A DNA stretch of 30,247 nucleotides. Source: a virus. The translations under genes were made by a program, and so were the position numbers. A model generated the notes under the pieces. It saw only the letters and a list, made by a program, of their open reading frames with translations, had not been told where the DNA came from and did not search any database. Below, in pieces: positions 3,665 to 10,147 of this stretch (position 1 is its first letter; each line of letters begins with the position of its first letter). The stretch lies in the IMG/VR virus record IMGVR_UViG_3300032249_001110, positions 1 through 30,247 of that record, one strand, 5' to 3'.

Positions 3665-4071
3665 GTGAGTTCACGGGCACAAGATGTGATGCTTGCACCA
3701 AGCTGGTAGATGTCCTGCCGATCCAGGCCGTTGAAGACCTCCACTGGGAAGAGGACGACTACGGTGGGCACACTTGTTCCGACTGCCTAGAGGTCAGGTC
3801 TCGACTTGAGGCCGAGGTCGCTACTGTAGACGACATATCTGTTTTCGGCGAGACCCTGACCGAGGCCGCCGATGCCATTCTGGAGTCCCCAGAAGTGCAG
3901 CGGGTGAAGGAGTTCGAGCGGTTCAAGGAACAGACACTTCAGGACCTCCGAAAAGACATGAAGCGTGTCGGAGCGACTGACGAGCAGATTGAAGAGATGG
4001 CTACAGAAGTTGAAGAGGAGCTTGACCTTCAGTTCAATCAGAAGTACAACCTCTTCAACAAGGAGAAGTGA
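3661..4071 (+). CDS. Small zinc-finger-like protein with acidic helical tail
   Basis: 136 aa from ATG 3661, chosen because it overlaps the previous stop (ATGA) and gives a clean N-terminus. The frame is open further upstream, but that part overlaps the coding end of the preceding gene. CDAC (Cys9, Cys12) and CSDC (Cys39, Cys42) make a plausible four-cysteine zinc site. Residues about 45-136 are acidic and helical, probably a coiled coil (EFERFKEQTLQDLRKDMKRV). No enzyme motif is seen; a binding or adaptor role is a guess. Its 3' end supplies the AGGAG that precedes the RNA ligase start. Confidence 0.72.
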   Translation: MSEFTGTRCDACTKLVDVLPIQAVEDLHWEEDDYGGHTCSDCLEVRSRLEAEVATVDDISVFGETLTEAADAILESPEVQRVKEFERFKEQTLQDLRKDMKRVGATDEQIEEMATEVEEELDLQFNQKYNLFNKEK

Positions 4072-4073
4072 CC

Positions 4074-5090
4074 ATGGGATACATGCACATCGACAACCTG
4101 TACAAGAACAAGGACCTTCTGATGTTCAAGAAGGTCTATGCTCTGGAGAAGATTCACGGGACCAGCGCCCACATCAGCTTCCGGCGTGTTCCAGGCCAGG
4201 TCAGCGATTTGACCGAGGACGAGGTCCGTGCGGCTGCGGAGACCGGCGAACTCCTCGTTGAGGTCGCTGCTCGGAAGGTCAAGGCTGACATCGGGTTCTT
4301 CTCGGGTGGCGAGAAGTACGACAACTTCGTCAAGCTCTTCGACCTGGAAGACCTCAAGAAGCGCTTCCTGGAGGCTGGCCCTGAGAAAATGACGGTCTTT
4401 GGCGAGGCCTACGGTGGCCGGCAGCAGGGAATGAAGGACACCTACGGTCCGGTGCTCAAGTTCGTCGCCTTCGACGTACTGATGAGCGACAACCGAGACC
4501 CGAATGCAGAGCCCGGCTCCAAGATTTGGCTGGGCGTGGAGTCGGCCACCCGGATGGTCGAACGTCTTGGTCTGGAGTTCGTCGCCTGGAATCTGGTCGA
4601 CACCGACCTCGCCAGCCTGGACCGTGAGCGAGACCTGCCCAGCCGGCAGGCCGTCCGAAACGGCATCACCGAGCCTCGGATTGCCGAGGGAGTCGTGCTT
4701 CGACCTCCAATCGAGGTTCGTACTAACAATGGCGGTCGCCTGATTGCCAAGCACAAGCGCCCAGAGTTCTCCGAGCGTTCTTCGAAGAAGGACACCCAGG
4801 TCACGCCCGAGAAGCTGGCTATCCTCTCGAAGGCCGAAGAGATTGCCACCGAATGGGTCACGACGACGCGACTGGAGCACGTCCTCGACAAGATTCAGGC
4901 CCAGAAGCAGCGACCTCCCATGATGGAGGACACCCGGGAGGTCATCGACGCCATGGTCGAGGACGTCACCCGGGAGGCGAAGGGCGAGATTGTCGAGTCG
5001 AAGGAGGCTATCAAGGCCATCAGCTCGACGACTGCCAAGCTCTTCGCCAAGGTTCAGCGGAAGCGCCTGGAAGAGGCTGCCGGCCACTAG
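4074..5090 (+). CDS. RNA ligase, Rnl2-type
   Basis: 338 aa from ATG 4074, which has AGGAG at 4061-4065; a GTG at 4068 is an alternative. The nucleotidyltransferase motifs are complete: motif I EKIHGTSAHI with adenylated Lys26 (T4 Rnl2 also has EKIHG), motif III VFGEAYGG, motif IIIa FVAFDV, motif IV EGVVLRP and motif V IAKHKRPEF. An insertion of about 55 residues after motif I and a helical C-terminal extension of about 90 residues after motif V frame the core. The family seals 3'-OH/5'-phosphate RNA ends, typically nicks in duplexed or structured RNA, through enzyme-AMP and RNA-adenylate intermediates. In T4-like phages RNA ligases repair tRNAs cut by host anticodon nucleases. A second RNA ligase lies 1.6 kb downstream. 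Confidence 0.88.
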   Translation: MGYMHIDNLYKNKDLLMFKKVYALEKIHGTSAHISFRRVPGQVSDLTEDEVRAAAETGELLVEVAARKVKADIGFFSGGEKYDNFVKLFDLEDLKKRFLEAGPEKMTVFGEAYGGRQQGMKDTYGPVLKFVAFDVLMSDNRDPNAEPGSKIWLGVESATRMVERLGLEFVAWNLVDTDLASLDRERDLPSRQAVRNGITEPRIAEGVVLRPPIEVRTNNGGRLIAKHKRPEFSERSSKKDTQVTPEKLAILSKAEEIATEWVTTTRLEHVLDKIQAQKQRPPMMEDTREVIDAMVEDVTREAKGEIVESKEAIKAISSTTAKLFAKVQRKRLEEAAGH

Positions 5091-5929: not shown

Positions 5930-6697
5930 ATGCGAGCACACGTACTGAGCGATGTCCACTTCGAGCACATGTCTTCTGGCCTCTTCTTCTTCGAGAAGCT
6001 GGAGAAGGTCCAGAAGAACGACCCGGCCGATGTCGTTATCCTTGCCGGTGACATCTGTCAGATTGGCTCCAATGAGGCTCTCTGGAAGAGCCAGGTCGCA
6101 CGTCTCATCAGTGGCTACAAGAAGGCGTTCTACGTTCCAGGGAACCACGAGTTCTACAGGTCGTCGTTCCCTGATGCCGCTGTCTTCTTCGATTCCCTGG
6201 AATCCGACCCCAATTTTCACAACCTCGTGCAGCTGAGCCGTGGTCCCCACGAGTACGGCGGCATCCGGTTCATTGGCAACACGATGTGGTTCCCTGACCT
6301 TGGAACTTCCTACCGAACCAAGATGGGGATGTCCGACTTCCTGGCCATTGGCGACAGCGCCAATCCCTTCGAGCCGGCCGTCTACCGGGAGCACGAGAAG
6401 TTCCTCTTGAACGTCATGGGACGTGTTCAGCAGGGCGATGTCGTAGTGACGCATCATCTGCCCCTCAAGGCCTGCATCCATCCTCTGTACGAGCATTCAG
6501 CCCTGAATCCTTTCTTCATGGCGGATATGTCGGGACACCTCAATGAGGCCCAGATGCCTCGTGCGTGGATCCACGGCCACACCCACACGCCCGTCGACCT
6601 TCAGCACAAGGGGATGCGTGTGTACTGTAACCCACATGCGTATCCTGGTGAGCGGTCGAACCTGAAGTTTTGGGACCGAATCGGTATCGACCTGTGA
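5930..6697 (+). CDS. Calcineurin-like metallophosphoesterase
   Basis: 255 aa. All signature blocks are present in order: SDVHFEH (Asp8, His10), LAGDIC (Asp41), PGNHEFY (Asn72, His73), VVTHHLP and HGHTHTPVD. These bind two metal ions and catalyse phosphomonoester or phosphodiester hydrolysis. The substrate is not evident; known relatives act on proteins, nucleotides, cyclic nucleotides and nucleic-acid ends. The short domain with no extra region resembles small phage and bacterial phosphoesterases. It overlaps the HNH-RNA ligase start (GTG 6694) by 4 bp, so the two are likely co-translated. In bacterial Pnkp systems a phosphoesterase and a ligase act together in RNA end healing, making a joint role attractive but unproven. 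Confidence 0.85.
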   Translation: MRAHVLSDVHFEHMSSGLFFFEKLEKVQKNDPADVVILAGDICQIGSNEALWKSQVARLISGYKKAFYVPGNHEFYRSSFPDAAVFFDSLESDPNFHNLVQLSRGPHEYGGIRFIGNTMWFPDLGTSYRTKMGMSDFLAIGDSANPFEPAVYREHEKFLLNVMGRVQQGDVVVTHHLPLKACIHPLYEHSALNPFFMADMSGHLNEAQMPRAWIHGHTHTPVDLQHKGMRVYCNPHAYPGERSNLKFWDRIGIDL

Positions 6698-7728
6698 ACA
6701 AGTCCAAGCTTCTCAGTCGAGACGAGTTCCGAGAGGGCGTATTCGCTCGTGACGGGAATCTCTGTGTCGTCTGTGGAGCTGCCGCTGTCGACGCCCACCA
6801 CATTCTGGAGAGGCGGCTCTGGGGCGATGGCGGGTACTACCTGGAGAACGGAGCTTCTCTTTGTAGCCAGCACCACATTGAGGCCGAGCGTACAACGCTT
6901 TCTTGCGAGGAGGTACGTGCTGCAGCCGGCATCCAAACCGTCCTGCTTCCATCTCACCTGTACCGAGACCAGGTCTACGACAAGTGGGGGAATCCGGTCA
7001 TGCCCAACGGTACGCGGCTACGCGGTGACCTCTTCCTCGATGAATCCGTCCAGAAGATTCTCGGCGAAGGGAACGTTCTCGGCTTGTTCACGACCCACGT
7101 CAAGTTCCCTCGCACGTACCATCTGCCCTGGTCTCCCGGTCTCATAAAAGACGACAGGATGATGGCAGAACAGGACCCCTTCGCCTCAGAGCCTGTTGTC
7201 GTGACCGTGAAGATGGATGGCGAAAACACCACCATGTACTCGGACGGCATCCACGCTCGCTCCCTCACCTACGAGCCACATCCCTCCAGGAACTGGGTGA
7301 AGTCTCTCTGGGGTCGGATTGCGCATGACATTCCAGAGGGATGGCGTGTTTGCGGTGAGAACCTCTGGGCAGAACATAGCATTCCATACAAGAACCTGGA
7401 CGACTGGTTCTTGGTCTTCTCCGTCTGGAACGACAGGAATGTCTGCCTCTCTTGGGAGGAAACTAAAGAGTGGGCTTCTCTACTCGGGCTCAAGACTGTT
7501 CCAGTCATTTATGAGGGTGACGGCGATCGCTGTTTCATCGAGGGCTTGCATCGACAGAACTTCAATGGCGACCCTATGGAGGGGTACGTAGTTCGACGTG
7601 CGGGTGCTTTTCCGTACAGCAACTATCGCTACTTCGTGGGAAAATACGTCCGCGCAAACCACGTACAGACCCATGGGCACTGGATGAGGCAGCAGGTAAA
7701 GGCGAATTCACTGAAGGAGAAGGCGTGA
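6694..7728 (+). CDS. HNH domain fused to RNA ligase
   Basis: 344 aa from GTG 6694, which overlaps the previous stop; the frame is open a little upstream but inside the preceding gene. Residues 1-75 form an HNH zinc-finger nuclease-like domain: CVVC (Cys24, Cys27), DAHHI (His35, His36), LENG (Asn52), LCSQHH (Cys57, His60, His61). Residues about 125-330 form a nucleotidyltransferase ligase: motif I VKMDGE with Lys173, motif III CGENLWAEHS, IIIa FLVFSVW, motif IV EGYVVRR and motif V VGKYVR. Both halves keep their key residues. The ligase half looks like phage RNA ligases of the Rnl2/Rnl1-like 'RNA_ligase' group rather than DNA ligases. A cutting domain joined to a sealing domain suggests an edit-or-repair enzyme, or an HNH used only for nucleic-acid recognition. 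ATGA-type overlap with the next gene. Confidence 0.85.
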   Translation: MNKSKLLSRDEFREGVFARDGNLCVVCGAAAVDAHHILERRLWGDGGYYLENGASLCSQHHIEAERTTLSCEEVRAAAGIQTVLLPSHLYRDQVYDKWGNPVMPNGTRLRGDLFLDESVQKILGEGNVLGLFTTHVKFPRTYHLPWSPGLIKDDRMMAEQDPFASEPVVVTVKMDGENTTMYSDGIHARSLTYEPHPSRNWVKSLWGRIAHDIPEGWRVCGENLWAEHSIPYKNLDDWFLVFSVWNDRNVCLSWEETKEWASLLGLKTVPVIYEGDGDRCFIEGLHRQNFNGDPMEGYVVRRAGAFPYSNYRYFVGKYVRANHVQTHGHWMRQQVKANSLKEKA

Positions 7729-8038: not shown

Positions 8039-8317
8039 ATGTCGAAGAATGGACCAGGAAGCCGTGCAGAGATTCGCCGATTGTCGGCAGAGAAGCGCAT
8101 CGCAGCAGCAGCGAAGCGAACGCCAGAGCAGCAGCTTCAGCTGCTCGATGCCGGCGGTTTTGCGGCGAAGAAGGAGCGTGCCAAGCTGGCGGCGCGCATC
8201 GCCGCCCAGCAGAAGAAGGCGGCAAAGGACCTGATGAAGGCGACCACGTCGGAGCTGGGCGCCGCAGCCGTGGCAGGCGCCAAGATGTCGAAGTTCGTGA
8301 AGAAGCAGGTTTGCTGA
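8039..8317 (+). CDS. Small basic Lys/Ala-rich protein
   Basis: 92 aa; CAGGAGAC (8025-8032) before ATG 8039 is a good ribosome site. Composition is strongly Ala, Lys, Arg and Gln with long helical runs (e.g. KKERAKLAARIAAQQKKAAK), as in small histone-like or nucleic-acid-binding proteins. No enzyme motif. It lies directly upstream of the inverted-repeat-rich stretch at 8324-8586, so RNA binding is a possible but untested role. Confidence 0.65.
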   Translation: MSKNGPGSRAEIRRLSAEKRIAAAAKRTPEQQLQLLDAGGFAAKKERAKLAARIAAQQKKAAKDLMKATTSELGAAAVAGAKMSKFVKKQVC

Positions 8318-8323
8318 ATCAAG

Positions 8324-8586
8324 GTTTGCCGTGACGGGGCCAGGGTAGCTCCCAACCCTTCGGGGAAATTCCGTCAAGCAAGAGCCGAAGGCTTTGAGGT
8401 GTCAGGCAGTAGCGCTAAAATGCCTGACATCAATCGACCCTGAGAAGGCGCGTGTGGGTTCCGAGCGTGGCAATTCGGAGCCGTCTTTTACTGGACCGGC
8501 GTACAAGCACGTGATACGTACGCCTCCAGCGGCGGCTGGCAAACGAGGTACCCGGGGTCCGCCGACCGCCGGGTTTAGTTCATCCC
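8324..8586 (+). ncRNA. Candidate structured RNA (hairpin-rich gene-free stretch)
   Basis: The 280 bases between two genes contain a dense set of inverted repeats. They are: TGACGG 8332-8337 with CCGTCA 8371-8376, enclosing CCC-TTCG-GGG (8356-8365); AAGAGCC-type stem 8381-8386 with 8390-8395; a perfect 9-bp stem TGTCAGGCA 8400-8408 with 8421-8429 (11 bp with a G-T pair); 8-bp stem 8457-8464 with 8475-8482; 12-bp stem 8491-8495 plus 8498-8504 with 8518-8524 plus 8525-8529, with a CC bulge; and CGGCGG 8530-8535 with CCGCCG 8559-8564. GTTTGCC 8324-8330 is fully complementary to GGCAAAC 8538-8544, which could close a multibranch structure or form a pseudoknot with the last hairpin. I could not match it to tRNA, tmRNA, RNase P or a riboswitch class I know. 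It could also be a leader controlling the next gene. Confidence 0.5.
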
Positions 8587-8597
8587 TGGAGATTACC

Positions 8598-8897
8598 GTG
8601 ACTACTCGAACTGTTGAGACCAAGTGGTATTTGTACCGCCAGAACAACAGCGGTGGCGTCTTCAGGGCCCCGGCCATTAACGTCTACGTTGAGGCACTGA
8701 ACGAAGATCACGCTGACACCCGAGCTGAAGAGCTGGGTATCTACTTCGGAGGTCTGCTCGACTGCAGCTGTTGCGGCGACCGCTGGTCGACTGCTGAAGA
8801 GTACGGGGGAAGGGAAGACTGCCCAGAGGCAATCAAGTACTCCATGGACGATGCCGAGCCCACCGTTTTGCCCGTGCGCAAGGTCGAACGAAAGTGA
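8598..8897 (+). CDS. Small phage protein, 'YRQNNSGG' family (DUF7296-like)
   Basis: 99 aa from GTG 8598, preceded by TGGAGA (8587-8592). The frame is open back to 8394, but that part overlaps the inverted-repeat stretch and reads as non-protein. The sequence WYLYRQNNSGGVF, then AEELGIYFGGLLDCSCCGDRW resembles a small protein family common in phage genomes, from memory DUF7296. Two clustered Cys (CSCC) may bind metal. Function unknown. Its stop overlaps the helicase start. Confidence 0.78.
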   Translation: MTTRTVETKWYLYRQNNSGGVFRAPAINVYVEALNEDHADTRAEELGIYFGGLLDCSCCGDRWSTAEEYGGREDCPEAIKYSMDDAEPTVLPVRKVERK

Positions 8898-10147
8898 GCG
8901 ACTTCATCCCCACAGCTGGGCAGGCAGAAGCCCTCACCGCTATCAAGAACATGCCCCATATGTTCCCTGGCGGAGGAGGGCTCTGTGTCATCAGTGGGTA
9001 CGCCGGCACCGGCAAGACGACACTCCTGAAGGTCCTGGCAAAGGAGTTCCCCACCCTCTTCGTGCTCACCCCCACTGGCAAGGCCGCCGTGCGGGTGAAG
9101 CAGGCAGCCGGCTGTGACGCTCTCACGATTCACCGATGGCAGTACAACCCGATGAAAGACGAGGAGTCGGGCGAGTACCAGTTCCTCATGAAGAAGGCCG
9201 AAGAGATTCGGCTTCCGCCCAACAAGACCCTCATCGTCGATGAGGCCTCCATGGTCACGGAGCAGGTGTTTCAGCACCTCTACTTCTTTGTCAAGACTCT
9301 TGGCATGAACCTGGTTCTCATTGGAGACGGTTTCCAGCTCCCACCAGTCGAGCGTGACCCGACCAAGAAGTCCTTCAGCGTGTTTTCGCCTGACTTCCAG
9401 GCGGACATCAAGGTCAATCTCACTGAGGTGCTGCGCCAGGCCCTTGAGAATCCCATCATCCGAATCGGAACCGACATTCGTACCAACATCAACATCATGT
9501 CGTCTGTACTAGCCCTTCCTGTGGTCGTGCCTTCTCAGCTGGAGACAGCTCTCCTGGAGAACCTGGCCAACAGTGGCGTCATCATCTGTCACAAGAACAA
9601 GACTCGACACGACCTGAATCTCAAGATTCGAGAGCTTCGGAAGCTGCCCAAGGGTGTGCTGTGGGAGAACGAGCCCATCCTCGTGACCAAGAACAACTAC
9701 GACCTTTCCGTTTTTAATGGAGAGGTCTTCACGGTGGCAGAACTTGGCAGACGCCATCAGAAGTTTGCAGTCACTGACCGGCGAAAGAACAAGACACTCT
9801 TCATGGAGTTCCAGTCCGTCAAATTCTCGGACACTGAAGCTGAAGGAGTTCTCTCTCCAGAGGAGGTCTTTGGTAAGGCCGAAGAGCTGGACCCCGATGC
9901 CATCAAGTACGGGAGTCAGCAGTGCATGAAGAGGGACTACCCCGAGCTTGAGAAGGACGATCGACCCAAGCACATCCACGCCAACCTCGGATACGCACTC
10001 ACCTGCCACAAGAGTCAGGGTTCCGAATGGCCTGAAGCTCTTGTTTTTGTTGAGGACAGCGTGAAGCTCAGTACGACTGAAGGGCGTCGTTGGCTGTACA
10101 CTGCTATCACCCGTAGCAAAGACAAAATCAGAGTCGTCTGGCCTTGA
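8894..10147 (+). CDS. SF1 DNA helicase, Dda/RecD-like
   Basis: 417 aa from GTG 8894 (4-bp overlap with the previous stop). Helicase motifs in order: Q-like region GQAEALTAI (9-17), Walker A GYAGTGKTT (35-43), LTPTGKAAVR (motif Ia), IVDEASM (motif II), LIGDGFQLPPVE (motif III), LTCHKSQGSEW (motif V region, UvrD_C_2-like) and LYTAITRSKD (motif VI). This is the layout of phage T4 Dda and RecD2-type 5'-3' helicases, with length close to Dda (439 aa). Likely roles are replication start, recombination or removal of bound protein from DNA. A DNA ligase gene follows after a 32-bp gap. Confidence 0.9.
   Translation: MSDFIPTAGQAEALTAIKNMPHMFPGGGGLCVISGYAGTGKTTLLKVLAKEFPTLFVLTPTGKAAVRVKQAAGCDALTIHRWQYNPMKDEESGEYQFLMKKAEEIRLPPNKTLIVDEASMVTEQVFQHLYFFVKTLGMNLVLIGDGFQLPPVERDPTKKSFSVFSPDFQADIKVNLTEVLRQALENPIIRIGTDIRTNINIMSSVLALPVVVPSQLETALLENLANSGVIICHKNKTRHDLNLKIRELRKLPKGVLWENEPILVTKNNYDLSVFNGEVFTVAELGRRHQKFAVTDRRKNKTLFMEFQSVKFSDTEAEGVLSPEEVFGKAEELDPDAIKYGSQQCMKRDYPELEKDDRPKHIHANLGYALTCHKSQGSEWPEALVFVEDSVKLSTTEGRRWLYTAITRSKDKIRVVWP

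Follow-up and report, generated by a model that had tools for sequence, protein, structure and literature searches.

The question raised by this locus is what occupies a 280-bp gap (8318–8597) in the plus-strand gene run of a 30.2-kb phage contig (30,247 nucleotides, analyzed at full length and referred to here as the window). An earlier note on this DNA had called the gap unusual, and both its extent and its rarity were borne out: the upstream open reading frame stops at 8317, the downstream gene starts with GTG at 8598, and other visible gaps in the run are shorter than 60 bp. The note had further proposed that most of the gap is an undescribed structured RNA. Comparison with related phages upholds this proposal for 8327–8482 (~155 nt) but not for the full 263-nt span. 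The features of the locus are as follows.

8039–8317, plus strand: small upstream gene of 92 amino acids, used as a synteny anchor
8327–8482, plus strand: conserved structured RNA core of ~155 nt, as judged by comparison
8486–8586, plus strand: hairpin-rich spacer private to the window phage, outside the conserved RNA
8598–8897, plus strand: DUF7296 gene (phrog_4867; PF23969, E 9.5e-20)
8894–10147, plus strand: Dda-like helicase gene (phrog_325, E 2.6e-72)

Relatives of the locus were gathered by means of the neighboring proteins and a loop pattern, and copies from three other phages of a narrow clade were compared with the window. Two of these phages are ~169 kb in length (L083, 168,933 bp; L002/L146, 168,622 bp), and the third, L147, is a 6,173-bp fragment. 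L002 and L146 are one genome, with the element present at both contig ends and differing there by one base. The gene order consists of a metallophosphoesterase gene, an RNA ligase gene (in the window), a TAT-type gene, the small gene, the RNA, a variable slot, and the helicase gene, which lies downstream of the RNA in all four phages; the TAT-type gene was not found in the L147 fragment. The variable slot holds the DUF7296 gene in the window and L083, in the latter directly after the RNA; this gene is missing from the slot in L002, which has tRNA-Asn (L002:178–251), and in L147, which has a degenerate tRNA-like gene (L147:3470–3535). In both of the latter, the acceptor end leads directly into the start codon of the helicase gene, which would place the ribosome-binding site within the tRNA. 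No tRNA or tmRNA was found in the window. Two RNA ligase genes lie nearby in the window (4068–5090 and 6670–7728); the N-terminal part of the second also matches HNH profiles, and many large phages have relatives of this gene, at up to 68% identity.

Each genome has a single copy of the core, always located after the small gene and before the helicase gene. It is 84–90% identical to L083:4825–4990, L147:3305–3472, and L002:13–176, and this range holds for all pairs, versus mostly 58–75% for the flanking genes when compared with those of the window. Individual values are 65–70% for the metallophosphoesterase (with one recent pair, L083–L002, at 90%), 59–62% for the TAT-type gene, 70% for the DUF7296 gene, and 69–75% for the helicase (70–78% to the relatives in separate comparisons). 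The small upstream gene, for which a Pfam search gave no match, is 64–70% identical to its counterparts in L083, L147, and L146 by tblastn (residues 1–61); in the comparison of flanking genes the values are 64–68% to the window and 83–85% among the other three phages. Its 3′ end in the relatives overlaps the 5′ end of the RNA and runs to a TAG inside it. The window differs from the relatives at this point, where a short direct repeat, GTTTGC TGAATCAAG GTTTGC (8309–8329), spans the 3′ end of the small gene. Protein coding through the region, which the note had named as grounds for refutation, is ruled out by indels of 1 and 3 nt within the core alignment. A covariance model of the core retrieves exactly the L083, L147, and L002 copies.

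The predicted fold of the core comprises the following elements.

8332–8376, plus strand: P1 domain, UGACGG (8332–8337) paired with CCGUCA (8371–8376), enclosing two small hairpins
8343–8353 and 8356–8365, plus strand: P1 inner hairpins, GGG(UAGCU)CCC and CCC(UUCG)GGG, respectively
8384–8387, plus strand: 5′ strand of a putative pseudoknot, GCCG, pairing with 8468–8471
8398–8431, plus strand: P2 hairpin, with a variable stem of which 8402–8408/8421–8427 is shared and which is longer in the window
8439–8448, plus strand: likely GNRA tetraloop hairpin, CCU-GAGA-AGG, with GAGA in three phages and GGAA in L147, both GNRA
8457–8482, plus strand: P4 hairpin, GGUUCCGA/UCGGAGCC, with a conserved loop start, GCGUG
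8468–8471, plus strand: 3′ strand of the putative pseudoknot, UGGC, within the P4 loop

Covariation shows that the predicted fold includes at least P2 and P4, the two helices in which the compensatory changes that the note had suggested looking for were found. The perfect 9-bp stem that it had reported at 8400–8408/8421–8429 belongs to P2; pairing there is kept in the relatives through two-sided changes, which affect five of the seven shared pairs. The P2 loop, GUAGCGCUAAAA (8409–8420), is by contrast invariant and contains the palindrome UAGCGCUA (8410–8417), and a 16-nt stretch of P2, CAGTAGCGCTAAAATG, is invariant in all relatives. The reported 8-bp stem at 8457–8464/8475–8482, which includes one U·G pair, is the stem of P4; two of its pairs are changed on both sides (GC/AU/CG and UA/AU/CG), with every pair kept. 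In a model-guided alignment, which was itself fitted to the structure, all 170 pair cells are standard and nine of 34 pairs are changed on both sides; none of 500 shuffles attained the covariation score, and sliding one strand by 1–3 columns reduced pairing to 34–58%. The same helices were found by a separate column search on a hand-corrected alignment. Three helices with at least two two-sided changes were observed, a number never reached in 300 column shuffles.

Other parts of the fold receive less support of this kind. The P1 domain is nearly invariant, with a single A-U to G-U change, and one inner C/G hairpin is longer on both sides in L147 (CCCCC/GGGGG), which fits the pairing; P1 and its inner hairpins are thus plausible elements whose pairing is hardly probed by variation, and the same near invariance applies to the likely GNRA hairpin. 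The pseudoknot that would join the P4 loop to the junction includes two pairs with two-sided changes (AU/UA in L083 and L002, GC/CG in the window and L147), and is considered tentative because 6% of column-shuffled alignments contain a helix of equal quality by chance.

Wobble pairs in these helices are all G·U on the plus strand, with no A·C, which points to a plus-strand RNA rather than to DNA or the opposite strand. This pattern bears on the idea that the conserved sequence is a DNA element, such as a promoter, an operator, or a replication origin. TTGAGG-N16-TAAAAT at 8394–8421, inside P2, resembles a sigma-70 promoter; its TTGAG-, spacing, and TAAAAT are identical in all four phages, and replication genes are close by. 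Nevertheless, a DNA element is improbable in view of the compensatory changes in P2 and P4 and the form of the wobbles, and the highly conserved segment 8327–8376 lies upstream of the promoter-like match. The match may represent an overlap, i.e., a promoter within an RNA gene, or chance. Taken with the compensatory changes and with conservation above that of the flanking genes, the sequence comparisons indicate that 8327–8482 is a conserved noncoding structured RNA that fits the plus strand.

Thermodynamic stability gives a different impression. The note had named a fold energy no better than that of shuffled sequence as grounds for refutation, and the energies found do not set the region clearly apart: z is −1.82 for the 280-nt gap on the plus strand and −1.09 on the minus strand, −1.20 for the core, −0.33 for the L083 copy, and −0.74 for 8486–8586. 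By the energy test alone, the RNA would have been discarded; support for it comes from comparison. Energies of this order (z only −0.3 to −1.9) are what functionless relics or chance hairpins might give, but identity above that of the neighboring genes and structured covariation largely refute such a reading, which retains hardly any credence.

The outer parts of the proposed span fared less well than the core. A 12-bp stem with a 2-nt bulge (8491–8504/8518–8529) is present in the window but absent from the relatives, and was rejected as part of the conserved RNA. It lies in the private spacer (8486–8586), which has no counterpart in L083, where the next gene comes right after P4, and whose place is taken by the tRNA or tRNA-like gene in L002 and L147. 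GTTTGCC and GGCAAAC, suggested as closing the whole fold, match perfectly in the sequence, but 38% of shuffles contain a perfect 7-mer pair separated by at least 150 nt and the relatives lack this closure, so the outer helix was likewise set aside.

The absence of a recognizable RNA class agrees with database searches, in which Rfam 15 gave no match at the gathering threshold in the window or the L083 copy (L316). A permissive search brought up IMES-2 (RF02035) at 17.3 bits (E 0.024) in the window and 11.8 bits, for the hairpin only, in L083; both scores fall below the gathering threshold of 54.7 and do not support membership. The likeness lies in the hairpin loop AGUAGCGCUAAAA, in which 13 nt are identical with the same closure and which does not vary among the four phages. 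However, the remainder of the IMES-2 model gives a poor alignment, and the overall architecture differs: the second hairpin of IMES-2 has a related loop, GGUAGCGCAUACAAC, whereas no adjacent GGUAGCGCAUACAAC-type hairpin was found in this RNA, in which the AGUAGCGCUAAAA hairpin is followed by hairpins with a GNRA loop and then a GCGUG loop. With two of three features failing, the shared loop is a weak and unproven lead, not a basis for membership.

Other structured phage RNAs offer partial parallels. GOLLD and ROOL are phage noncoding RNAs without assigned function that are often found near tRNA genes, and they assemble via kissing loops, some of them symmetric, as also seen in OLE (PMC12286853). 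Similarly, a tRNA or tRNA-like gene lies directly beside two of the four copies described here, and the RNA has a palindromic loop. GOLLD and ROOL, however, are several hundred nucleotides long and form large cages (PMC12286853), whereas this RNA is ~155 nt; their Rfam models had no match in the window, in addition to the disparity in length. The wcaG and manA cyanophage leader motifs are likewise conserved structured RNAs in T4-like phages, but are tied to particular kinds of metabolic genes (PMC2864571), unlike this RNA, for which the adjacent downstream gene is inconstant. A description of the RNA was not found in Rfam or in the open-access papers searched, and it may have been listed elsewhere. 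It apparently represents an undescribed family of narrow known distribution, which belongs with the orphan structured phage RNAs and in no named family.

Searches for further copies are consistent with this narrow distribution. Named phages gave no match to the RNA or to the IMES-2 consensus, and a wider helicase scan yielded no further copy among the matches listed. Among the phage records searched, the nearest named relative of the window is Myxococcus phage Mx1 (helicase 37%), which also has the sole match to a 1048-aa window protein; this likeness suggests that the host may be myxobacterial. No credible copy of the RNA was found in Mx1 or in the L003 genome, a relative at middle distance (helicase 48%). 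A bacterial genome collection contained 41 exact 16-mer matches, none with a stem of at least five pairs, as chance predicts, and 189 genomes of the phylum of L301 gave no copy under strict filters and with no positive control. A Rhizobium plasmid match upstream of nifB (23 nt, E 6) was attributed to chance, and weak full-length model matches (L320–L323) were rejected for poor pairing. The Polyangiaceae genome L301 has at 6800–6860 an inverted repeat, TTAGCGCTACTGCCGGG...CCCGGCAGTAGCGCTAA, in which the loop sequence forms one arm of the stem.

The loop by itself was also sought in viral contigs, where two other six-pair stems were found in noncoding stretches. These occur in unrelated phage contigs (L145:5920–6110, minus strand; L260:540–690, plus strand), each with a 6-bp stem that carries the AGUAGCGCUAAAA loop and has terminator-like hairpins after it; upstream in L145, CGGAGGCUU resembles CGAAGGCUU of the core. 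Across other viral contigs, stems that enclose the loop are only marginally enriched, with four observed versus 1.3 expected for stems of at least four pairs (p 0.04) and two versus 0.6 for at least five (p 0.12). The AGUAGCGCUAAAA hairpin might be a portable module for RNA–RNA or RNA–protein docking in otherwise unrelated RNAs (this one, IMES-2, L145, and L260), of which the present RNA would be a small self-dimerizing member, a proposal that we regard as unlikely. Two further stretches, L266:4994–5553 (plus strand, inside a tRNA array) and L188:5390–5949 (minus strand), are rich in hairpins and lack long open frames, and in each of them a short stem bears AGTAGCGCTAAAAT. They resemble larger noncoding RNAs, for which Rfam gave no match.

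How might such an RNA act? Our preferred reading, held tentatively and with a little less than even confidence, is that it is a ~155-nt noncoding RNA of a phage operon with replication genes that acts in trans, possibly as a dimer. The RNA would be co-transcribed with the neighboring genes and then either released or retained as a stably folded element. Since a tRNA or tRNA-like gene begins a few bases after it in two phages, cutting by RNase P there would set its 3′ end. The RNA would then act in trans; independent action is favored over a single-gene leader because the immediate downstream partner is inconstant. Less securely, the invariant 12-nt loop with the palindrome UAGCGCUA may be a contact site, most simply through a speculative kissing interaction between two copies, or else as a protein-binding loop. 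The palindromic loop has a self-duplex energy of −12.5 kcal/mol, which 1.25% of shuffles reach and which is strong given the composition of the loop; because the loop is invariant, dimerization draws no support from covariation. Antisense pairing of the loop with a phage mRNA was rejected, as the two 169-kb phage records and the window contain no site for its complement, TTTAGCGCTAC, other than the locus of the RNA itself.

The main rival is a cis-acting leader or attenuator, which would respond to a ligand or protein and regulate the DUF7296/helicase portion of the operon, with P4 serving as a terminator, for instance, or through occlusion of the ribosome-binding site. The RNA is on the same strand and upstream of the helicase gene in every phage, an arrangement that leaves room for a cis role on the operon. 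In L083, P4 ends ~16 nt ahead of the next ATG; in the window, GUCUUUUACU comes after P4, and P4 is rated terminator-like; and the GNRA loop, possible pseudoknot, and invariant junctions recall aptamers. However, the U-tract is not conserved in the relatives, the next feature is a DUF7296 gene in two phages and a tRNA or tRNA-like gene in the other two, and the distance from P4 to the next start codon ranges from ~16 to ~115 nt. We regard cis control as possible but doubtful. The long invariant unpaired stretches and possible pseudoknot are also reminiscent of ribozyme cores, but no ribozyme family matched at threshold in Rfam 15 and no recognized core was found, making a self-cleaving or other catalytic RNA in the operon transcript very improbable.

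This apparently new family, with its clear covariation, joins the few conserved phage RNAs that lack an assigned function, and its size makes it easily probed. The clade that carries it is made up of large phages, to which Mx1 is the closest named phage in the records searched. Its loop offers a concrete hypothesis of self-kissing and a possible tie to the orphan marine RNA IMES-2.
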